A stretch of 64,000 bases of DNA, taken from contig NZ_JAKKUT010000002.1 in assembly GCF_029582805.1 (NCBI RefSeq), positions 248,001-312,000 of the forward strand, given 5' to 3'. This DNA is from Candidatus Synechococcus calcipolaris G9. GTDB taxonomy: Bacteria > Cyanobacteriota > Cyanobacteriia > Thermosynechococcales > Thermosynechococcaceae. How positions within the stretch are numbered: the first letter of the stretch is position 1; each line of letters opens with the position of its first letter. Shown here in pieces: positions 4,607 to 26,332 of this stretch. The notes beneath the pieces were generated by a model that was not told the origin of the DNA, searched no databases, and saw only the letters and a list, made by a program, of their open reading frames with translations. The position numbers and the translations under genes were made by a program.

Positions 4607-7600
4607 TTGATTGTTTTGGCAAATTTAGCAGATCAACTGACGAAGCAATGCCAGCGGCTGCAATCCTGTGTGCTTCAAGATCGGCAAACGGGTTGGTATC
4701 GTTTACCGCCTCCACCTGCTTCTAATACACCACCATCCTTGGTCAATCTAGCTTCCCCCCTTGATCTGAATGAAAAGGGTCATATTTCTTGGCCCCAGGG
4801 TCAGGTTTCCCTTTGGCTCGGCCAGAAGATTACGGTTCCAGCGGATTTAGAGGGGTATACCCTAGAGGGTTTGACCCTAAGAATACAGCTAACCTGGTGG
4901 GCAGAGAACGCCCAAATTTATGTCAATGGCGAACGGGTTCAGGAAGGGGATCTATTTGATCACTCCTGCCGGATTTGCCTGGGTGCGGCGGTGACTCCGG
5001 GGGAATCCTGGGAGATTTGTTTACATTTGGTGAGTCCGGGCCATGATCCGGGGGCCCTGGTGCGATCGCAGGTGGTCTATGAATCCGCTACCGGCATTGA
5101 TCCCGGTTTTGTCGCCCAGGAGCTAGAAATTGTCAAACTTTTTCTAGGGGAGTTGGATCCAGATCAGCAAGAACAACTCCAGGAGCAGTTAACAAGGTTA
5201 GCTGCCACGGAGAATCAACGGCAACAACTGGATTCGGCCTTAGAAATAGTCCATGAACACCTCAAACAATGGCGATCGCGCCTAGGGGCCTATCAGATTC
5301 ATTTGACTGGCCATGCCCATTTGGATCTGGCCTGGCTCTGGCCGGTTGCGGAGACTTGGGAAGCAGCTAAACGTACCTTTGAGTCGGTATTAGCCCTACA
5401 AGACCAGTACCCGGAACTCATTTTTAGTCACTCTAGTCCCGCCCTCTATGCCCATCTGGAAGAAACCGACCCGGATTTGTTTCAACGGATTCAACGGGCA
5501 GTGCAGCAGGGCCGCTGGGAAGTTGCCGCAGGCCTATGGGTGGAGCCAGAACTGAACCTGATTAGTGGTGAATCCCTAGCCCGGCAGATCCTCTATGGTC
5601 AGCGGTATGTCCAGGAAAAATTCGGCGGACTTAGTAAAGTTGCCTGGCTACCGGATAGCTTTGGCTTTTGTCGGCAATTGCCCCATTTTTTGAGGCGGGG
5701 GGAGATTGAATATTTTGTTACCCAAAAGCTGCGCTGGAACGACACCACGGTCTTTCCCCATGGTTGGTTTCGTTGGCAGGATGGCACGGGCGACTCGGTT
5801 CTGAGTTTAATGTCTGCTCCCATTGGCGAGGGTCTGGATCCGGTTAAAATTGCCGCCTATGCCCAGGAGTGGTATGGGAAAACGGGATCCCATCGTAGTC
5901 TCTGGTTACCGGGTGTGGGGGATCATGGCGGTGGCCCCACGGCGGATATGCTGGAGATCTATCGACGGTGGCAGCGGTTAGAGGGGTTTATGCCCAGGAT
6001 GGCGTTTACCACGGTGCAGACCTACCTAGAGGCCCTCAAGGCAGAAACAAGTTTAGAGTCATTGCCCCTGTGGCAGGATGAACTATACCTAGAATTCCAT
6101 CGGGGCTGCTATACCTCCCATGGCGATCAAAAGCAGTTGCACCAGGATTGTGAGCAAGCCCTTGTCCAGGCAGAAATCTGGTCGTCCTTGGCGGGGATGG
6201 TGGTGGGTGCGGCCTATCCCCACCAGGAATTAGAGCGACTCTGGAAATTACTTCTGTTTAATCAGTTCCATGATATTTTGCCGGGTACGGCGATCGCCCC
6301 AGTGTACACCGATGCCAATGGGGACTGGTCAGAGATTCTCAGCCATGCCAATACCCTTTTAGAGACGGCCCAAACCCATATCCTAGAAAATATTACCTAT
6401 CCCGAGCCGCCGGAACCGGATGCAATTCCCCTGGTGGTGTTTAATAGCCTGAGTTGGGCCCGTACCCGCCTAGTTCATGTTCCCCTAGAGTCCTTAGCTC
6501 CATACCTTTGGCAGATCAAGAACTCTGCTGGGGATAGTGTTCCCTGGGATCGGGGGTCGGCAGAGAATTTAGGGTTTGTCGCCCTAGAGGTACCACCCCT
6601 CGGCTATGGCCTCTATTGGTTATGCCCAATCCCGGAACCGGTGACACCCTTTCGTCCTCCCTTGGGCTATTTAATTGAAAATAATTATCTCCATGTGGAA
6701 ATCAATGCCCAAACTGGGGAGATTACCAACCTCTACGATAAGATTCAGCAGCGATTTATTCTTAAGGGGCCGGGGAATCAGTTGCAGTTTTTCCAAGATC
6801 AGGGTCAATACTGGGATGCCTGGAATATTGATCCCAACTATGGAAACTATCCTCTGGAGAAGGCCACTCTACAGCAGATTGAATGGATCCGCTGGCATCC
6901 CCTAGAGCAACGGCTGCGGGTCACGTGGCAGTTTCGCCAATCCCAGATTCAGCAGGACTATTGCCTGGAAATCTATTCCCCTGTCCTCAAGATTGAGACG
7001 GTGATTGATTGGCAGGAATCCCACATTCTCTTGAAAGCTGCTTTTCCCCTGGAGATCGCCGCGCCAAAAATTACTTGCGAAAGTCCTGGGGGTACCACGG
7101 AACGTCCCACCCTTCCTAATGCCGATCCTAATCCTGAGTTATCGGCAGCGGATCAGGCCAAATGGGAAATTCCCTTTCTCCATTGGCTGGATCTGGCCAC
7201 GGAAAAGGGGGATTACGGCCTGAGTTTATTAACCAGGGATAAGCATGGTGTGGATGCCCAACCGGAACAGGTTCGCCTTACCCTTTTGCGATCGCCCACC
7301 TGGCCCGACCCCGACTGCGATCGCCGTCGGCATACCTTTACCTATGCCCTCTATCCCCATGGACAAACCTGGCAGGAGGCCCAAACCCATCACCAGGCCC
7401 AGGAACTCAATTCGCCCCTTGTGCCCCGGATTGTTGAAGATAGAATAACGTCGGCTTCGGGTTCACTTCCCCCGGAAACCAGTCTTTTAGCCTGGGATTG
7501 TCCCCACTTGCACTTGATGACCCTGAAGCAGGCAGAGGATCAACGGGGATGGATTTTACGATGCCAGGAAACCATTGGAGAAGGATCTCAGTTAAATTTA

Positions 7601-15424: not shown

Positions 15425-15492
15425 AATTGATGTTAGTTTAACCTTGGGTAAGCCAGGATCATAAATCAATAAATTACTTGAGAATAAATTTT

Positions 15493-16857
15493 ATGTCTTT
15501 TCCGTTTATCTCGCCTTTGGTCGCAACGGATCTAGATACGAGTCCCATCGTTCTAGCGGGGGTTCTCCTCAGCTTAGTGGTTATTTTCCTTGCCAGCAAA
15601 CTGGGGGGTGAAGCGGCCAAGCGTCTAGATTTTCCCCCCGTATTGGGAGAACTCATGGCGGGGTTAGTGATTGGGATTTCTGCCCTGCACCTTGTCGTAT
15701 TTCCCGTGAGCGGGGCCCAAGCGGCCGATTCATTGATTATGACCGCCCTGCAATGGATCAATCACCTGGAGCCGGACACCCTCACCAAGATTTACGAATC
15801 CCAGAGTGAAGTGGTCAAGGTTTTGGCGGAGTTGGGGGTGATTATCCTTCTCTTTGAAATTGGTCTAGAATCCGATGTGCGGCAACTGAAGGAAGTGGGC
15901 CCCCAGGCGATCGCCGTTGCCATGACGGGACTTTTGGCTCCCTTGATTCTGGGCACAGCGGGACTGATGTGGTTTTTCCATCTGCCTGCGATTCCGGCGG
16001 TATTTGCGGGAGCGGCCCTTACCGCCACCAGTATTGGTATTACCTCCAAGGTTTTATCGGAACTAGGGCAACTCCAATCGCGGGAAGGGCAAATCATTGT
16101 GGGTGCCGCCGTCATAGATGATGTCTTGGGCATTATTGTCTTGGCGGTAGTGGCCAGTCTAGCCAAAACCGGCGAAGTGGATGTGCGCCATGTGTGCTTT
16201 TTAATTGTCGGGGCAACGACGTTTCTAGCTGGCTCGATTATTCTCGGCAGTGTCTTTAATAAGACCTTTGTCAAACTGGCGGAGGGTCTGAAAACCCGTG
16301 GGAATATCGTTATTCCCGCCCTAGGCTTTGCCTTTTTTATGGCCTTTTTAGGCAGTGCCCTGCAACTAGAAGCCATTTTGGGAGCCTTCGCGGCGGGTCT
16401 GGTACTGGATGAAAGTAATGCCCGTCTGCAACTGGAAGAACTCCTCAAACCCATTGCCGACTTACTGGTACCCATTTTCTTTGTGACGGTGGGGGCAGAG
16501 GCGGATCTAACCATTCTCAATCCGACCGTTCCCGAAAATCGGGCCGGGTTACTCATTGCCGGTTTTCTGATTGTGATTGCCATTTTTACCAAGCTGATCA
16601 GTGGTTGGACTGTCTTTGGTATTCCGGGGATTAACCGTCTGGCCATTGGTTGGGGCATGGTTCCCCGGGGTGAAGTGGGCCTAGTATTTGCGGGTATTGG
16701 GGCGGCAACGGGTGCATTAGATAAACCCCTAGAGGTGGGGATTATCCTCATGGTCATTTTCACCACCTTTTTAGCTCCACCATTTTTACGCTCTGCCTTT
16801 AGTGCCCAACCTCCCACCAGTGGAGAAACAACCCCAGCGATCGCTGGTGAACCCTAA
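15493..16857 (+). CDS. CPA2-family cation:proton antiporter (Kef/NapA type)
   Basis: A 454-residue membrane protein with about 12 helices and no C-terminal TrkA-N or RCK domain. The helix near the start, with DFPPVLGELMAGLVIG, is the conserved inverted-repeat segment of Kef/NapA antiporters. The core has AAVIDDVLGI with an Asp-Asp pair, as in electrogenic Na+/H+ exchangers of the NapA group. A later GMVPRGEVGLVFA segment is also family-typical. It should exchange Na+ or K+ for protons across the plasma or thylakoid membrane. ATG 15493 is preferred to TTG 15478. It follows the histidine kinase by 68 bp on the same strand, so they may be co-transcribed. Confidence 0.9.
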   Translation: MSFPFISPLVATDLDTSPIVLAGVLLSLVVIFLASKLGGEAAKRLDFPPVLGELMAGLVIGISALHLVVFPVSGAQAADSLIMTALQWINHLEPDTLTKIYESQSEVVKVLAELGVIILLFEIGLESDVRQLKEVGPQAIAVAMTGLLAPLILGTAGLMWFFHLPAIPAVFAGAALTATSIGITSKVLSELGQLQSREGQIIVGAAVIDDVLGIIVLAVVASLAKTGEVDVRHVCFLIVGATTFLAGSIILGSVFNKTFVKLAEGLKTRGNIVIPALGFAFFMAFLGSALQLEAILGAFAAGLVLDESNARLQLEELLKPIADLLVPIFFVTVGAEADLTILNPTVPENRAGLLIAGFLIVIAIFTKLISGWTVFGIPGINRLAIGWGMVPRGEVGLVFAGIGAATGALDKPLEVGIILMVIFTTFLAPPFLRSAFSAQPPTSGETTPAIAGEP

Positions 16858-16895
16858 GTTAGGCAGCTTGGCCTCACGTTCGCAATGGAGTCTAA

Positions 16896-18194
16896 ATGCA
16901 ATTAAGTGAAAACGACTTCAGAGATTATCTCTTTAATAACCATAAGGATTCGATTTCAGACTTAATCCATGGAAAACGTGAGCCTGTTGAGTAGAATGGT
17001 GACGGATTCCCTCCAATAAGTCTTTTGCTGCAGCAAATTGTCGAGAGAAAGATCAATGAAATAATTGATGGACTTGAGTCGTTGGTTCTCTCCGCTAAAG
17101 AGCTAAGACTCAAAAAATCTGGCGATACAACAACACGTATAGATTTATTTGGGAATTCTGAATATATTGGACTTGCGATAATCGAGCTTAAAAAGTCGGG
17201 GCAAACTGAGAGACAAGCATTTACAGAGCTTCTGGCGTATGCTAATCACTTTTGTTCCATTTTTTCTGGTCTGACCGAACACGCAATTAATACTATTTTA
17301 ATTGCTCCAATGAAAACAAGGACAGTTAGAGATGCCTTTGTCCAGGAGGTACTAGGAAATAACAAATCCTCTGTAGCTCTTATCCCATCCGATGAAGAAG
17401 GGCAAATCAAGTTAACAGTATACTACCCAGATGAGTCATATTATCAATGGTTTGAAAACAATCTTTTAGATGACAGGTCTATGTATACTGTGGCTATAGC
17501 CTTTCAGGAGTTAGACGGCTGCATAGACACCGACAAGAACAATAATCAGAGGATACCTGATTACTCTAAAGAAGCTCTAAATACTATATCAAACTCCATT
17601 TCTCATCGGCTGGGATTTGAGGGTTTTCACTCTATCGTTTATGCCACTCAGTCGTGGGGTGAGATTAGTCAAGATTTCCTTTATCCAAATGTTATATACG
17701 CTGTTTTTGTAAACCCATTTGCTTCATTTAGAAACTCTTGCTATGAGGGGCAGATTTGCGGTGAGACAAGAGAGGGTAGAGTGTATGAAATTCAGTCAGT
17801 TTATGATCAGATCGATGAATCAGAAAGACAGTTCTGGCTTGAATCTTTGGAGTCTAACTTTCATGGGCTTGCCATCAGGATAGTCAAAGAAGAATTTGAT
17901 AAATGCTTCCTAAACACTAAGAAATCGAAAGTGAAATATGAAATTTCTCTTCCAGACTGGTATGACGTCAAAACAAGCATGATTAACTCTGTTTTTACGC
18001 ACAATCTTGAGATATACCAGACGGGGCTTCTGAGAAAAATATATTCAAATTATATTGCCTATATTTACGGTGTAAGTATGGATGAAATATTCTATTCGGA
18101 TGATTTACCTATATATTCCTATTATACGTTAAGGTCATCCCTTCCTGTTTGGGAAATACTTCGGGGACTTGGTGTTGGGCATGAGCATACCTAG
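16896..18194 (+). pseudogene. PD-(D/E)XK-like nuclease gene interrupted by an in-frame TAG
   Basis: One continuous frame runs from ATG 16896 (MQLSENDFRDYLFNN...) to the stop at 18192-18194, about 432 codons. It is broken by TAG at 16992-16994 (codon 33). After the TAG the frame resumes at once as NGDGFPPISLLLQQIVERK, so a Trp (TGG) or other codon was probably lost by one base change. The 389-residue remainder could start only at TTG 17025 or later. Residues about 60-80 carry TRIDLFGN followed by IIELKKSG, the D...(E)xK arrangement of restriction-endonuclease-like nucleases, on a strand-turn-strand as expected. The rest is unassigned. The coding sequence is visibly more AT-rich than the flanking core genes. 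It may be an old defence or mobile-element nuclease. A functional shortened product cannot be excluded. Confidence 0.6.
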
Positions 18195-18275: not shown

Positions 18276-18689
18276 TCAAGCAAGTGTCGATGAGGGAGGG
18301 ATCAGTTTAGTGGCAGCCGCAGCCAGTTTGAGGGCGATTGCTTTCTGGTCTTCCTTTGCCATCGGCCACCCTTCAATATCGGCGTGGTTAGGGTTATCAG
18401 GAAAGGGTTGGGCTGTCACTCTCAGGGATTCTACCAGGCAATTCTTGGTCAGAATATCCGATCGGCCGTGGAGGGTTCTCTGTTGTTGAGTCGCTACATT
18501 AACCCCTGCCTGCCAAATTTCCGCTTCCGTTGCATCCCGATGGCGCGTAACGGATAGTTCTTGGTAGGGATGGGGGATGAACAGATTAGGCTTTACAGTG
18601 CGATCGCTCCGAAACAGACTACTCTGCATCACGTAGCGGGCGAGTAACTCATTTTCCTCAACCGGGGAAATATTCTCTGGATCAAGCAT
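18276..18689 (-). CDS. unknown protein, third gene of the TIGR04255 cassette
   Basis: A 137-residue soluble protein I cannot assign to a named family. The N-terminal part (ENELLARYVMQSSLFRSDRTVKPNLFIP) is charged. The middle has EIWQAGVNVATQQQRTLHGRSD and the end has the striking FPDNPNHADIEGWP followed by a helix (KEDQKAIALKLAAAATKL). I recall similar GRAD...NPNHA...GWP proteins elsewhere in bacteria beside similar neighbours, but this is memory, not a search. It starts 6 bp after the stop of the preceding gene, so the three genes are clearly one operon. No catalytic motif, signal peptide or membrane segment. The N-terminal mobile region plus compact C-terminus would suit a small partner protein. 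Confidence 0.7.
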   Translation of the reverse strand: MLDPENISPVEENELLARYVMQSSLFRSDRTVKPNLFIPHPYQELSVTRHRDATEAEIWQAGVNVATQQQRTLHGRSDILTKNCLVESLRVTAQPFPDNPNHADIEGWPMAKEDQKAIALKLAAAATKLIPPSSTLA

Positions 18690-18695
18690 GAAACC

Positions 18696-19160
18696 TTAAT
18701 TCTTGGCTAAGGCAACTTCTTGAATTAAGCTGAGAAGCCGTTTAGGAATTTCCCCTAGAAATGGCTCTGAGCCACGCGGATCGCTGTTTCCTAGAAGAGC
18801 CGCGTAATAGAGAATGCCTTCGGGACTGACGCTGACGGAGATCGTCCAATGGGGATCGCGGTACCAGTCTAGGGTTAGGTGGCCATCTGGTTCTGCCCCC
18901 ACAGAAGGTAAGGGAAACCCCAGAGGCAGTACCTGAATCACCGCATAAGCATAATTCAGAGTTGCTTCTTTTACAGGGAACGCATCATAGCCATCCCAGT
19001 TAGGGGTTCTACACTCTGCCCAAGTCCTTGCAAGCTCTTCAATTGCAGGTTGCTTGCTAAAGGCGGCGGTTTGGGAGAAGTACTGCTGATTGACTCGTCT
19101 GACTTGGTCAATATAAACAGCCGTAGAGCTAACGCCTCTGGGTAGAATGGCTGTGGTCAT
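18696..19160 (-). CDS. unknown protein, second gene of the TIGR04255 cassette
   Basis: A 154-residue protein without a family name I can give. Visible features are TPNWDGYDAFPV (residues about 53-64), a helix, PLPSVGAEPDGHLTLDWYRDP (about 84-104), then WTISVSVSPEGILYYAALLG, a run of alternating beta strands, and a final helix. The pattern N-W-D-G-Y...P-D-G-x-L-x-L-x-W...S-V-S reads as a compact beta-rich domain. Its ATG overlaps the end of the upstream TIGR04255 gene by four bases (ATGA), and six bases separate it from the next gene, so translation is coupled. No catalytic residues are obvious. Confidence 0.72.
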   Translation of the reverse strand: MTTAILPRGVSSTAVYIDQVRRVNQQYFSQTAAFSKQPAIEELARTWAECRTPNWDGYDAFPVKEATLNYAYAVIQVLPLGFPLPSVGAEPDGHLTLDWYRDPHWTISVSVSPEGILYYAALLGNSDPRGSEPFLGEIPKRLLSLIQEVALAKN

Positions 19161-19945
19161 GATGTGGCTCCAAATCGTTTGAGGGCATAGCTAGTAATGC
19201 AGCTAAAGAAGACCTTATTCTTAAGCCAGCGCATTTCTTGGAGTCCTTGGGCCAAGGTATCCTGATCTAATTTAAGCAACTCCTGAGTGAAAACGTCGAT
19301 ATCAACAATTAAGGCTCGTCCATCAGTGGGATCTGCACCAGCAGGCTGGATAGTTCTAACCCAGTTGATGGAGTAGGAGTAGCCAGGAATAGGGTAGGTG
19401 TCTTGATGAAAGAAGGACTCGGCTGTGAGTTCTACCCCTGATGGGGGAGCGGGGATGGTAGTGAGGTAATGGGATGGCTGTTCACCATCATCCAGGGGAA
19501 TGCGGTTGATGTAACGCACGCCTAGGCGTTGAATCACGGTTGGCTCAGCTAATTCCAGGAAAATATGCCAAAATCGCAGGGCTTCGGTTTGAAATCTGTC
19601 CCAGTCTTCGTAGGGTTCTAATCGGCTAAAAGCAACTCCGTTAAGGGTGAACTGTGCCACATGGCGATTCTGCTCATCTTGGAGGCGAAAACCACTCCAC
19701 TGTCTCTGCTGGAAGAACTCGGAAAAACCATCAGGTGTAGCCATTGCACCCAACTGGATATCTTGCTGAGGTTGAAGGATGGGATAGTCAGGTAAACGCT
19801 GGGTCAGTTCTGCTTGAAGAGCTTCAGGTTCCAGCTTTTTGCCCGCATGGGCCTGCCAATGAATTACCGCCTCAATACTGGGGGCAGCTTTCAGGGCAGG
19901 AAATTCCTCATTGAGGTTGAGGCTGAACTTGGGCAGCGGACTCAT
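19157..19945 (-). CDS. TIGR04255-family protein, first gene of a three-gene operon
   Basis: A 262-residue protein matching the sporadically distributed TIGR04255 family as I remember it. It has an N-terminal APSIEAVIHW strand, a middle FRLQDEQNRHVAQFTLNG then AFSRLEPYEDW segment, and RLGVRYINRI in the centre. The family has no experimentally assigned function known to me and is scattered across unrelated bacteria, often in variable regions, which suggests horizontal spread. The protein is soluble and mixed alpha/beta. The two downstream genes overlap or abut it, so all three are probably made together. The operon is divergent from the Mrp fragment, with a tnpB scrap between them. Confidence 0.8.
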   Translation of the reverse strand: MSPLPKFSLNLNEEFPALKAAPSIEAVIHWQAHAGKKLEPEALQAELTQRLPDYPILQPQQDIQLGAMATPDGFSEFFQQRQWSGFRLQDEQNRHVAQFTLNGVAFSRLEPYEDWDRFQTEALRFWHIFLELAEPTVIQRLGVRYINRIPLDDGEQPSHYLTTIPAPPSGVELTAESFFHQDTYPIPGYSYSINWVRTIQPAGADPTDGRALIVDIDVFTQELLKLDQDTLAQGLQEMRWLKNKVFFSCITSYALKRFGATS

Positions 19946-20011: not shown

Positions 20012-20077
20012 ATGGAAAAAGCCTATCGTTACCACTTCTATCCCGCACCAGAACAGGACAATCTCTTTTTATGTTAA
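20012..20077 (+). mobile_element. 5' remnant of an IS200/IS605-type tnpB
   Basis: ATG 20012 begins MEKAYRYHFYPAPEQDNL and stops at TAA 20075-20077. MEKAYRYRFYP-x-x-EQ-x-x-L is the characteristic N-terminus of cyanobacterial IS605-family TnpB proteins. Identity is lost after about 18 residues, and the last codons overlap the start codon of the mrpC-like gene. The rest of tnpB, any tnpA and the element's right end are absent. The junction is therefore a deletion or rearrangement scar. Confidence 0.6.
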
Positions 20078-20421
20078 ATGGACTGATACTAGATGGGTTA
20101 GTACTGGCAACGATTCTATTGGGTTTTTTAGGGATCATTCTTAAAAAAAACCTGATGATGAAAATTATTGCCATGGATGTGATGAGTACCGGCGTGATTG
20201 CCTACTATGTGTTAATTGCAGCCCGGGGTGGTCAATTCACACCCATTTTTAAGCCCGATCGGGATGTAGCCTACGCCGATCCCGTTCCCCAAGCAGTAAT
20301 TTTGACGGCGATCGTCATTGGTTTTTCCATGCAAACCCTGATGCTGGTGGCGGCAATGAAACTGGCACGGGATAACCCCACCCTGGAAACCCAGGAAATT
20401 GATAAGCAAACCACGCCATGA
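20071..20421 (+). CDS. mrpC: Mrp-type Na+/H+ antiporter subunit C (NuoK-like)
   Basis: A 116-residue protein with three membrane helices, homologous in layout to MrpC/MnhC and to the NuoK/NdhE subunit of complex I. The segment GFLGIILKKNLMMKIIAMDVMSTGVIAYYV shows the helix 1-2 junction, and PVPQAVILTAIVIGFS is the conserved helix 3 start of the family (P-Q-A-L/V-x-L-T-A-I-V-I). It belongs to a multi-subunit antiporter that normally includes subunits A, B, D, E, F and G. Here only C and D are present. ATG 20071 gives the family start. The in-frame TTG 19984 would add residues overlapping tnpB-derived sequence and is rejected. It overlaps mrpD by four bases. Confidence 0.85.
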   Translation: MLNGLILDGLVLATILLGFLGIILKKNLMMKIIAMDVMSTGVIAYYVLIAARGGQFTPIFKPDRDVAYADPVPQAVILTAIVIGFSMQTLMLVAAMKLARDNPTLETQEIDKQTTP

Positions 20422-21899
20422 TTCCTGCCCTGAGCCTTGAAAACGTTACGATCGCCTGGGTCATATTGCCCTTTTTTGTCGGTTTGACCATCTATCTTTT
20501 TCCCAAAATTGATCGTCCCGCCGCCCTTTTGGTGGCGACCCTATCGGGATTCTATGGACTAGGGCGATTGGTTTCGCCAACCCCCCTCACCCTGGAACTC
20601 CTGGATAACTTTGGTGTCAGTCTCCGGGTGGATACCCTGAGTGGCTACTTTATTTTGACCAATGCCATCGTCACGGCATCGGTGATTCTCTACAGTTGGC
20701 CCCAGGGGAAAACGGTCTTTTTCTATACTCAGGTGATGATGCTCCATGGCAGTGCTAACGCGGCCTTTATCTGCAATGACCTCCTCAGTCTCTATGTGAA
20801 CTTAGAGGTCTTGAGTTTAGTGGTGTTTCTATTGGTTGCCTATCCCCGCAGCGATCGCTCCATTTGGGTGGCTTTACGTTACCTGTTTATCAGTAATACG
20901 GCAATGCTTTTTTACCTGATGGGTACAATTTTGGTTTACCAGGCCAATAATTCCTTTAGGTTTGAGGGTTTAGGAGCTGCGTCCCCAGAGGCGATCGCCC
21001 TGATTTTGCTGGCTCTTTTTACCAAGGGGGGAATTTTCCTGTCAGGGTTATGGTTGCCCCTGACAAATTCCGAATCCGAGGCGGCGGTGTCGGCTCTGAT
21101 GGCAGGGGTGGTGGAAAATGTCGGTATTTTTTCCCTATTAAGGGCGGCCCAAAACCTGGAACAAATTAGCGTAGTGGTCGGCATTTTTGGTGTAGCTACG
21201 GCTTTTTTGGGACTGAGTTTCGCCATTTTTGAGCAAAATATTAAGCGGCTCTTGGCCCTGAGTACCATTTCCCAACTGGGTTGGATTTTAGTGGCTCCGG
21301 CGGTGGGTGGCATCTATGCCCTGGCCCATGGATTGGCTAAATCATCCCTATTTTTAACCGTTGGTAATGTTCCCCAACCCACCCTCCCCCATCTAAAACA
21401 ACAGCCCATGGCCCGTTCCATCTACCTCCCCCTGGCGATCGCGGCCCTATCTATTGCCGGATGCCCTCTTTTGGCTGGATTTGGGGCAAAAATGTTGACC
21501 CTAGATCGGGTGCTTCTTTGGCAAGAAATCGCCTTAAACATTGCGGCAGTGGGCACGGCGATCGTCTATTCCAAGCTTATTTTCCTGCCCAGCAATAATC
21601 AAACACCCCCTGGGGAGGGTTCCCTATTATCCGGCTATGGACCGGCGATCGGGTTACTGTTATTGAGTTTATTGGCCGCCAATGGCTTATCCCTAGCCGC
21701 CTATACCCCTGAGAATCTCTTAAAAGCCTTCGTCATTCTTGGCTTCGGGGGCATCCTTTATGGTGTAGGCATTCGTCGCCTTAGGGTTCGTCTTCCCCGC
21801 CTCCTAGAGCAGTTTGATCATTTAATTGGGGCGATGAGTTTAATTTTAATGCTTCTGTTTTGGATGACCTTTGTTTTGGATGATGTGGGTCTAGGATAG
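20418..21899 (+). CDS. mrpD: Mrp-type antiporter subunit D (NuoM/NdhD-like)
   Basis: A 493-residue membrane protein with about 14 helices, of the proton-conducting complex I/Mrp D family. YVNLEVLSLVVFLLVAYP carries the Glu in helix 5 that corresponds to the essential Glu of NuoM/MrpD. The conserved central Lys helix falls in LFTKGGIFLSGLWLPL. KRLLALSTISQLGWIL is a typical NuoM-like stretch. The start ATG overlaps the mrpC stop (ATGA). The protein looks full length, ending 32 bp before an IS982 element. In complete cyanobacterial Mrp operons further subunit genes follow here. They are missing, so the two subunits may be nonfunctional alone or cooperate with genes elsewhere. Confidence 0.85.
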   Translation: MIPALSLENVTIAWVILPFFVGLTIYLFPKIDRPAALLVATLSGFYGLGRLVSPTPLTLELLDNFGVSLRVDTLSGYFILTNAIVTASVILYSWPQGKTVFFYTQVMMLHGSANAAFICNDLLSLYVNLEVLSLVVFLLVAYPRSDRSIWVALRYLFISNTAMLFYLMGTILVYQANNSFRFEGLGAASPEAIALILLALFTKGGIFLSGLWLPLTNSESEAAVSALMAGVVENVGIFSLLRAAQNLEQISVVVGIFGVATAFLGLSFAIFEQNIKRLLALSTISQLGWILVAPAVGGIYALAHGLAKSSLFLTVGNVPQPTLPHLKQQPMARSIYLPLAIAALSIAGCPLLAGFGAKMLTLDRVLLWQEIALNIAAVGTAIVYSKLIFLPSNNQTPPGEGSLLSGYGPAIGLLLLSLLAANGLSLAAYTPENLLKAFVILGFGGILYGVGIRRLRVRLPRLLEQFDHLIGAMSLILMLLFWMTFVLDDVGLG

Positions 21900-21931
21900 T
21901 GTCCTGCCAGTCCCTAAGCTAGTTTACTACC

Positions 21932-22900
21932 TAACGTGAGTTCTGGATAAGAAAGGTTGAGAGCCGTAGGCTGAAATAAGCAAACAATTCAGCAACTCCC
22001 ACCCCTATGTCTAGCTTAGAAGACCTTTTCTGCTCAGTCGATGACTTCTGCCAACGTTTTGAACCCCAATGGCAACAGCAACTTTTGCACAGTGGGCTAC
22101 AAACCCGGAAGCGGAGCCGACAACTGTGCCTGAGCGAAATCATGACGATTGTAATTGCTTTTCACCAGCAGGGCTACCGCACGTTCAAGGACTACTACAC
22201 CAAGCACGTTTGTCGCTACTGGCACAAGGCGTTCCCGGATTTGGTGAGCTATCCCCGCTTTATCAGTTGGTTGCCTTCGCTGTTATTGCCATTGTCTGCC
22301 TACCTGCGGTCTTGCTTTGGGCAATGCAGTGGGATTAGCTTCATGGACTCAACCAGCCTGAAGGTTTGCCACAATCGCCGCATCAAGCAGCACAAAGTGT
22401 TTGATTTGTTCGCCGAGCGGGGCAAGACTTCGGTGGACTGGTTCTTCGGTTTCAAACTCCATTTAGTTGTGAATGACAAAGGGGAATTGCTCAACTTTAC
22501 CCTGACTCCTGGCAACACCGATGATCGGACTCCTGTCCCCAAGCTGCTGCAACGGCTCTTCGGCAAGGTATTCGCCGACAAAGGCTACGTCTCGCAAACG
22601 TTGGCAAAACAACTCTTGCAGCAGACCGGGGTGCAGTTAATCACCAAGTTTCGGCGCAATATGAAGAATCGCTTCCTCAAGCTCAATGACCGTTTGCTGT
22701 TGCGAAAGCGAGCCATTATCGAGACCATCATCGACCAGTTAAAGAACATTTCCCAGATCGAGCACTCCCGGCATCGCTCCCCGGTTAACTTCCTGGTCAA
22801 CCTGGTTGGGGGATTAATTGCCTACTGCCACCAGCCGAAAAAGCCCTCGATTGCACTTGACTCAAACTTGCTCCCCTAGGCTTATCCGTAACTGACGTTA
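21932..22900 (+). mobile_element. IS982-family insertion sequence, apparently complete (969 bp)
   Basis: The ends carry 20-base imperfect inverted repeats. TAACGTGAGTTCTGGATAAG (21932-21951) matches the reverse complement of 22881-22900 (TAACGTCAGTTACGGATAAG) at 17 of 20 positions. A single transposase gene fills the interior. No convincing target-site duplication is visible on the flanks, so the insertion is old or one flank has been rearranged. Confidence 0.82.
22007..22879 (+). CDS. IS982-family DDE transposase
   Basis: A 290-residue transposase, the normal length for the family. The catalytic acidic triad can be read as Asp114 in FMDST, Asp191 in FADKGYVS and Glu239 in [11 protein letters not shown]. 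The N-terminal [23 protein letters not shown] motif and C-terminal [19 protein letters not shown] are standard IS982 signatures. The gene has no internal stop and both inverted repeats flank it, so it may still be active. It lies 3' of the mrpD gene and 150 bp before the HcyBio gene, on the same strand. Confidence 0.93.
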
Positions 22901-23027
22901 AACAAGCATGTGTAATGATATCGTCTGTCATCAGGCTTACTTCCTCTCCAAATACAAGACCATCAAGAAACGCTAAGGTAAGCTTGAAAGCATCATCTCG
23001 TCCCCAAAAATGGAGATAGCTCAAACC
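22901..23027 (-). pseudogene. possible gene fragment cut by the IS982 element
   Basis: Between the IS right end and the next gene, the minus strand reads IGLSYLHFWGRDDAFKLTL then AFLDGLVFGEEVSLMTDDI and ITHAC right up to the inverted repeat. The composition is protein-like (balanced, amphipathic), but I do not recognise the family and no start codon is in a convincing place. It could be the remains of a gene whose other part was lost when the IS inserted. Chance open reading cannot be ruled out. Confidence 0.25.
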
Positions 23028-23028
23028 T

Positions 23029-24231
23029 ATGGTGGCAACCCGAACGATTGCGGAAATTAATGAAAAAATTCTTGCGGGTCGAGCCACCGTCTGGACAATA
23101 GATGAGCTTAAGGCAAGGATTTCGGCAGGAAACTATGGCCAAGTTTTTAAGCAAGTGGATGTAATTACCACCGGTATCTTTGAACCCATGGAGGCCTCCG
23201 GGGCAATGCTCAACTTAGGGCCCACGGATCCCCCCATTAAGTTGCGACAATGTTGGTTAGAGGGTGTCCCTGCCTATACCGGCTTTGGGGCAGTGGATCT
23301 ATTTTTGGGGGCTGCCCAGGCGATGGAACTGGGGGCAGAACTTGCGGAGGGGGATCAACAGCGGGAGCGGGGGGGTGGCCATGTCATCGCTGATTTGATT
23401 GCGGGTAAGGTGATTCCGGTGCGGGCGGTGGGGCAAGTGACCGACTGCTATCCCCGGGCTACCCTGGAAACCACGATCACCAAGGATACGGTGAATCAAT
23501 TTTATCTCTATAATCCTCGGAACCTCTATCAGAATTTTATTGTTGGTGTCAATGGCGGCGATCGCCTCCTCCATACCTACCTCGGCCCTCTACAACCCCA
23601 ACTGGGAAATGCAGTCTATGCCCATGCGGGTGCGGTATCTCCCCTGCTCAATGATCCCCATTTACGCCTCATTGGTGTGGGAACACGCATTTTTCTGGGG
23701 GGGGGGATTGGCTATATCTCCTGGGAAGGAACGCAACATTTTCCCCTGCAAAAACGCCTCGCCAACGAAACGCCCATTGGCCCGGCCGCAACCGTTGCCC
23801 TCATTGGTGATGCGAAACACATGGATGCCCATTGGGTTCGGGGCTGCTACTTCAAACACTATGGCCCTTCGCTCATGTTGGGGGTTGGCATCCCATTGCC
23901 CGTTCTGGATGAACAGGTCATTGCCCACTGTGCCATTCAAGATAATGATGTGGTTGCTCCGGTCATTGATTTTTCCATTCCCCGACGAGTTCGGCCCACC
24001 TTTGGCTTGGTCAGCTATGCACAACTCAAATCTGGAAAAATCAAAATTGAAGGCAAAACGGTGCGTACCGCCCCCCTCAGCAGTATCTACTTTGGTCGTC
24101 AAATTGCCACCCTGCTCAAGGACTGGATTCTCAAGGGAGATTTTACCCTCACGGAACCCGTTGCCCCCTTACCCAGCGATCGCCCGTTTTTGCCCCAACA
24201 AACTTGGGCGACTACGACGACATTGGAGTAA
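23029..24231 (+). CDS. homocysteine biosynthesis protein (HcyBio, DUF39)
   Basis: A 400-residue protein of the HcyBio/DUF39 family. The archaeal relative is linked to making homocysteine by sulfide addition to aspartate semialdehyde, and that function is established for methanogens, not for cyanobacteria. Typical stretches are KQVDVITTGIFEPMEASGAMLN, the Gly-rich GAVDLFLGAAQAM, LIGVGTRIFLGGGIGYISWEGTQH and a GDAKHMD loop. The archaeal protein carries a C-terminal CBS or ferredoxin-like extension in some cases. None is present here. No membrane segment. The stop is adjacent to the rbgA stop, so the two are strictly convergent with no space for a separate terminator. Confidence 0.85.
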   Translation: MVATRTIAEINEKILAGRATVWTIDELKARISAGNYGQVFKQVDVITTGIFEPMEASGAMLNLGPTDPPIKLRQCWLEGVPAYTGFGAVDLFLGAAQAMELGAELAEGDQQRERGGGHVIADLIAGKVIPVRAVGQVTDCYPRATLETTITKDTVNQFYLYNPRNLYQNFIVGVNGGDRLLHTYLGPLQPQLGNAVYAHAGAVSPLLNDPHLRLIGVGTRIFLGGGIGYISWEGTQHFPLQKRLANETPIGPAATVALIGDAKHMDAHWVRGCYFKHYGPSLMLGVGIPLPVLDEQVIAHCAIQDNDVVAPVIDFSIPRRVRPTFGLVSYAQLKSGKIKIEGKTVRTAPLSSIYFGRQIATLLKDWILKGDFTLTEPVAPLPSDRPFLPQQTWATTTTLE

Positions 24232-25249: not shown

Positions 25250-26332
25250 CTAGGCATTGATGCTAGGAGCAACAATCGCCACTGGTTGAGACTCAGCAGA
25301 AGCCAAATCTAAGGGGAAGTTGTGAGCATTGCGCTCGTGCATCACTTCCATACCCAGGTTAGCCCGGTTGATAATGTCAGCCCAAGTATTGATTACGTTA
25401 CCCTTGGCATCGACAACGGAGTGGTTGAAGTTGAAACCATTCAGGTTGAAGGCCATGGTGCTGATACCCAGGGCGGTGAACCAAATCCCAACCACGGGCC
25501 AAGCAGCTAAGAAGAAGTGCAGGGCACGGCTGTTATTGAAGCTGGCATATTGGAAAATCAAGCGACCGAAGTAACCGTGGGCAGCAACAATGTTGTAGGT
25601 TTCTTCTTCTTGACCAAATTTGTAACCGTAATTTTGAGACTCGGTTTCGGTGGTTTCCCGAATCAAGCTGGAGGTCACCAAAGAACCATGCATGGCAGAG
25701 AACAAGGCACCACCAAACACACCGGCCACACCCAATTGGTGGAAGGGATGCATGAGAATGTTGTGCTCGGCTTGGAACACCAACATGAAGTTGAAGGTAC
25801 CGGAAATCCCTAGGGGCATACCGTCAGAGAAGGAACCTTGACCAATGGGGTAGATCAAGAAGACGGCGGTAGCAGCAGCCACGGGAGCGGAGTAAGCCAC
25901 ACAGATCCAAGGACGCATGCCCAAGCGGTAGCTGAGTTCCCATTCCCGACCCATGTAGCAGAAAACACCAATCAAGAAGTGGAAGATGACCAACTGGTAA
26001 GGGCCACCATTGTAAAGCCACTCATCCAAGGAGGCAGCTTCCCAAATGGGGTAGAAGTGCAGGCCAATGGCATTACTAGAGGGCACCACCGCACCGGTGA
26101 TGATGTTGTTGCCATAGATTAAGGAACCGGCAACTGGCTCACGAATCCCATCAATGTCGACAGGGGGGGCAGCAATAAAGGCAATCACGAAGCAAGCGGT
26201 GGCAGCCAGTAGGGTCGGGATCATCAAAACACCGAACCAGCCAATGTAAAGGCGGTTGTTGGTGCTGGTGACCCAGCTACAAAACTGTTCCCACAGATTC
26301 AGGCTTTCGCGACGTTGTAAAACGGTCGTCAT
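25250..26332 (-). CDS. psbA: photosystem II reaction centre protein D1, high-light (E130) form
   Basis: The 360-residue D1 protein binds P680, pheophytin, QB and most ligands of the Mn4CaO5 cluster in thylakoid photosystem II. Visible key residues are TyrZ at 161, Asp170 and His190. The 16-residue C-terminal extension is cleaved after Ala344. Residue 130 is Glu (YMGRE130). Glu130 marks the D1:2/PsbA3-like form induced in strong light, whereas Gln130 marks the low-light form. The rest is nearly invariant. Other psbA copies must lie elsewhere because cyanobacteria normally carry several. A sigma70-type promoter and a terminator are annotated separately. It is divergent from psb27. Confidence 0.98.

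Follow-up and report, generated by a model that had tools for sequence, protein, structure and literature searches.

A nuclease-like gene of Candidatus Synechococcus calcipolaris G9, lying in a 64,000-nucleotide stretch of DNA that we analysed as a whole (the window), is interrupted by an in-frame TAG at codon 33. Most probably this is a gene of PD-(D/E)XK type that was acquired horizontally, was held under purifying selection and was then recently inactivated by a change of TGG to TAG. An antiporter gene on one side and an mnhC-type gene on the other would have flanked its site of entry. The later nonsense change should confine translation from ATG 16896 to 32 residues, so that neither the D nor the ExK of the presumed active site is reached; were translation to restart at TTG 17025, the protein would be deprived of the invariant residue E5, and we expect such a product to be both rare and inactive. 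If so, the locus offers a clean single-lesion case, in which a sporadic nuclease-like gene has been switched off with the rest of its sequence still intact.

Translated from ATG 16896, the frame consists of 32 codons, the TAG at 16992-16994 and a run of 399 open codons that ends in its own TAG at 18192-18194 (Table 1); the coordinates and codon numbers of the preliminary description (TAG as codon 33, TTG 17025 as codon 44) are correct on re-reading. There is no shift of frame across the stop and, as that description proposed, one protein lies on both sides of it: the flanking residues align to all nine close homologues, each of which has TGG, encoding Trp, at codon 33. Alignment across the TAG with TGG in every close relative argues that the in-frame stop is not a chance feature, and the single base change suggested earlier accounts for the data. 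In the same nine sequences the frame is open through codon 33, and each has a possible start either at the position matching ATG 16896 or a few codons 5' of it. Homologues beginning at the equivalent of codon 44, which the preliminary description had named as evidence against a disabled gene, were not found among the aligned sequences, the N-terminal part being present in nine of nine close and three of three distant ones; the annotated starts of the distant relatives on Rhizobium and Gluconobacter plasmids take it in as well. One TGG-to-TAG nonsense change fits this pattern, whereas a start placed wrongly, a shift of frame or a programmed stop does not, and a disabling change that is absent from intact relatives would mark the gene as a pseudogene.

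Table 1. Features of the interrupted gene and its surroundings (positions in the window)
Feature	Position	Strand	Basis or remark
Sodium/hydrogen antiporter gene (PF00999), upstream	15478..16857	+	Pfam
GGAG, Shine-Dalgarno-like, 5 bases 5' of ATG 16896	16887..16890	+	Sequence
Interrupted nuclease-like gene, PD-(D/E)XK type by invariant residues	16896..18194	+	433 codons including inner and final TAG
Codon of invariant E5	16908..16910	+	12/12 other sequences; lost from any product begun at 17025
In-frame TAG, codon 33; TGG (Trp) in 9/9 close homologues	16992..16994	+	Translation and alignment
TTG, codon 44, possible but poor restart; no Shine-Dalgarno-like sequence upstream	17025..17027	+	Sequence
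Codon of invariant D83	17142..17144	+	Read as D of PD-(D/E)XK
Codons of E97-L98-K99	17184..17192	+	Read as ExK of PD-(D/E)XK
GGA (Gly) at position 240; Glu in 12/12 other sequences	17613..17615	+	Possible second damaging change
Three-gene cassette beside the nuclease gene, not part of it	18276..19945	-	Open reading frames and family match
137-aa gene of cassette	18276-18689	-	
154-aa gene of cassette	18696-19160	-	
TIGR04255 protein	19157-19945	-	NCBIfam
mnhC-type (PF00420) and mnhD-type (PF00361) genes	20071..21899	+	Pfam; start 20071 inferred

A scan of genome contigs with the part after the stop as query gave seven relatives; the close set comprises L002-L008, L070 (from genome G047) and L071 (from genome G219), 52-84% identical. 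Distribution of the gene is sporadic. When the organism's own genome and 57 others were searched, only G047 among the others gave a match (74%), and across the class, where 388 genomes were searched, matches came from 4 of the 387 others, namely G047, G219 (64%) and two distant ones. Among plasmids three records turned up with 25-29% identity, a single Gluconobacter strain supplying two, and no relative was found in viral contigs and phage records. The G219 copy is 93% identical in DNA to the Dolichospermum copy L004. One of the close set (L006, 5001-6158; 58%) belongs to a contig that binning assigned to an archaeon (Methanogenium MAG), which suggests either wide transfer or misbinning.

To which family the interrupted gene belongs can be read from its conserved residues. 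In an alignment of 13 sequences, from which the weak relative L027 (24% over 90 residues) was left out, the 12 sequences other than the window's are identical at 31 columns, E5, D83, E97 and K99 among them; E5 is the sole one of the 31 to lie before codon 44. We take E5, D83, E97 and K99 to be the active-site layout of the PD-(D/E)XK superfamily, in which D...(D/E)xK is joined by a Glu of the first helix. The invariance of these four in 12 of 12 other sequences, together with a weak match to HSDR_N in seven of eight family members (at E up to 0.1; best E 0.00032), supports the reading of the protein as a nuclease-like member of this type, which would presumably cut DNA. The window protein itself has no match over the curated cut-offs of Pfam and NCBIfam, its HSDR_N score being 19.4 bits against a Pfam gathering cut-off of 25.1. 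Its one NCBIfam match, to NucS, is weak (12.6 bits, where the cut-off is 216) and was set aside, and narbonin, the only match in a profile search of solved structures (E 0.0054), was taken as chance. An AlphaFold2 model (alignment A1) was poor, with a mean pLDDT of 47.6, too poor for a fold search.

Apart from the stop, the gene bears no mark of general decay. Because pairwise dS was not computable for five of seven whole-gene pairs, we fitted a branch codon model to nine sequences, excluding codon 33, over 417 columns without gaps; L008, a near copy of L007, was left out of this model and of the count of unique changes in the close set. Omega on the window branch was 0.046 against a background of 0.055 (p = 0.57), no excess, and control branches gave 0.032 (L002; p = 0.08) and 0.035 (L070; p = 0.18). 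A codon tally against L070, made without a significance test, counted 45 synonymous and 13 non-synonymous differences for the window gene and 58 and 8 for L002. These values are best explained by purifying selection on the gene for most of its history. Among the invariant columns, the window alone departs at position 240, where Gly replaces the Glu of all 12 others; leave-one-out departures over the 31 columns number one for the window, zero to two for the nine close homologues and 2, 6 and 17 for the three distant ones, and E240G by itself would be weak evidence of damage. Three further window changes, W209C, P262L and F415S, fall where the rest of the close set does not vary; counted in the same way, the eight other close sequences have between 0 and 22 such changes, and with E240G the three give a weak hint of relaxed constraint.

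Freedom from general decay fits a very recent change, but a wrong base call or a product that still functions would account for it equally well. That the TAG is an error of base calling or assembly, with the gene intact in the living strain, is unlikely, though it deserves some weight: one base alone departs from the pattern of the relatives, and selection on the gene appears to have been strong. Against it, the assembly appears sound, with 8 contigs and 99.97% completeness, and the four substitutions just described, whose hint of relaxed constraint is a weak one given the range among the other sequences, accompany the stop in the window copy. We treat the base as probably real.

A shortened, working protein begun at TTG 17025, the other product raised in the preliminary description, seems very unlikely. 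The 399 open codons after the TAG, free of decay, would accommodate it, and the D and ExK positions lie downstream of the TTG; but it would lose E5, in all nine close homologues the open frame reaches well 5' of codon 44, and the TTG has no Shine-Dalgarno-like sequence, against the GGAG five bases 5' of ATG 16896. Caution is accordingly due before a shortened nuclease is annotated from this position. Programmed or suppressed readthrough of the TAG to a full protein would suit the conservation of both sides as one protein in the relatives, and yet is scarcely to be credited, since the TAG is unconserved, with TGG standing in its place throughout the close set, and TAG is also the final stop of the nuclease gene itself, of the mnhD-type gene and of the transposase gene. 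A search with RF00005 marked 42 tRNA places in the genome, and in 42 loci covering them ARAGORN named no tRNA with a CUA anticodon, which speaks against suppression, although an intron-bearing one could be missed; cyanobacterial tRNA-Leu(UAA) often holds an intron, and none was seen among the 42 loci. Least credible of all is a split enzyme, weak and conditional, formed in two chains by the 32-residue N-terminal peptide, which carries E5, and a product restarted at codon 44.

The case for an inactivated, horizontally acquired gene draws also on its surroundings. In 7 of 14 loci of relatives the antiporter gene is followed directly by mnhC- and mnhD-type genes, and from this arrangement the DNA from 16858 to about 20070 (the nuclease gene and the cassette, some 3.2 kb) looks like an insertion; in the other seven antiporter loci no mnhC was seen within short flanks, so that the argument from an empty site has half of the loci behind it. 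The G+C content of the nuclease gene is 38.0%, that of the cassette 50.5%, of the antiporter gene 52.1%, of the mnhC/D genes 49.2% and of the whole window 50.6%, and the differing base composition suggests that nuclease and cassette had separate origins. In genome G048 the antiporter and mnhC/mnhD-type genes are followed by MNHE and MnhG-type genes too. Here (20418-23029), by contrast, the mnhD-type gene is followed in their place by a transposase gene at 22007-22879 (PF13612) and by HcyBio at 23029-24231 (PF01837), and the one MNHE-like match in the genome is far off (G000:C2:711040-711411), so that the operon of the antiporter appears to have been split. Further on (25250-26332; PF00124) lies a gene for a photosynthetic reaction centre, which we take to be of psbA type; together with the near identity of the Dolichospermum copy to that of G219, a genome of the same class, it suggests a cyanobacterial source for the window.

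The preliminary description had set a disabled nuclease beside TIGR04255. The adjacency stands; a consistent association does not appear in the loci compared. TIGR04255 was matched in 70 of 376 genomes of the class, that of this organism included, and in none of 29 loci (9 of the nuclease, 20 of TIGR04255) were the window's TIGR04255 protein and its nuclease matched together, the TIGR04255 loci being short (2.4-3.8 kb), which makes the absence of the nuclease from those 20 weak evidence. Nor did the 154-aa and 137-aa cassette proteins find a match in these 29 loci, 20 of them short as noted. For the 137-aa protein PADLOC gives a weak hit, the candidate PDC-M32B (E 0.0034). In the library of papers searched by name, TIGR04255 is not mentioned and PDC-S11 is named in two papers.

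Within the flanks compared, none of the nine close copies has counterparts of the antiporter, mnh or TIGR04255 genes of the window beside it. Nine proteins chosen from the relatives' neighbourhoods were scanned against Pfam; three had no Pfam family, and the matches of the others were to Schlafen AlbA_2, PIN, Uma2, an HSDR_N-like domain, an addiction-module antidote and a fragment of EF-G domain IV, with no partner gene common to the relatives among the nine. Such varied neighbours would suit a mobile gene with a defence-like role. Downstream of the intact copy in L002 is a second HSDR_N-like gene (6472-7371; E 2.3e-6, over the Pfam cut-off).

Two known systems offer partial likenesses. HSDR_N (PF04313), the N-terminal nuclease domain of the type I restriction enzyme R subunit, matches weakly around the D...ExK core (window residues 64-118); unlike that subunit, the window protein would have about 432 residues and has no helicase part recognised by Pfam. 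The PADLOC candidate defence gene PDC-S11 also matches weakly around the core, in eight of eight members (best E 8.7e-6), its best stretches covering only 29-72 of 347-379 model positions and leaving most of the model unmatched; among the distant homologues, none of three matches it at E up to 0.01. The E-D-ExK family is represented in bacteria and in one contig that binning assigned to an archaeon; a defence assay of an intact copy may be worthwhile. Close to the window gene are, for example, its orthologues in an uncultured Pseudomonadales contig (L002; 84% over residues 44-432), in genome G047 (74%) and in Dolichospermum (L004; 63%), all alike in length, start and invariant residues; the close orthologues differ from it in having an uninterrupted frame, with Trp at codon 33 in place of the stop.
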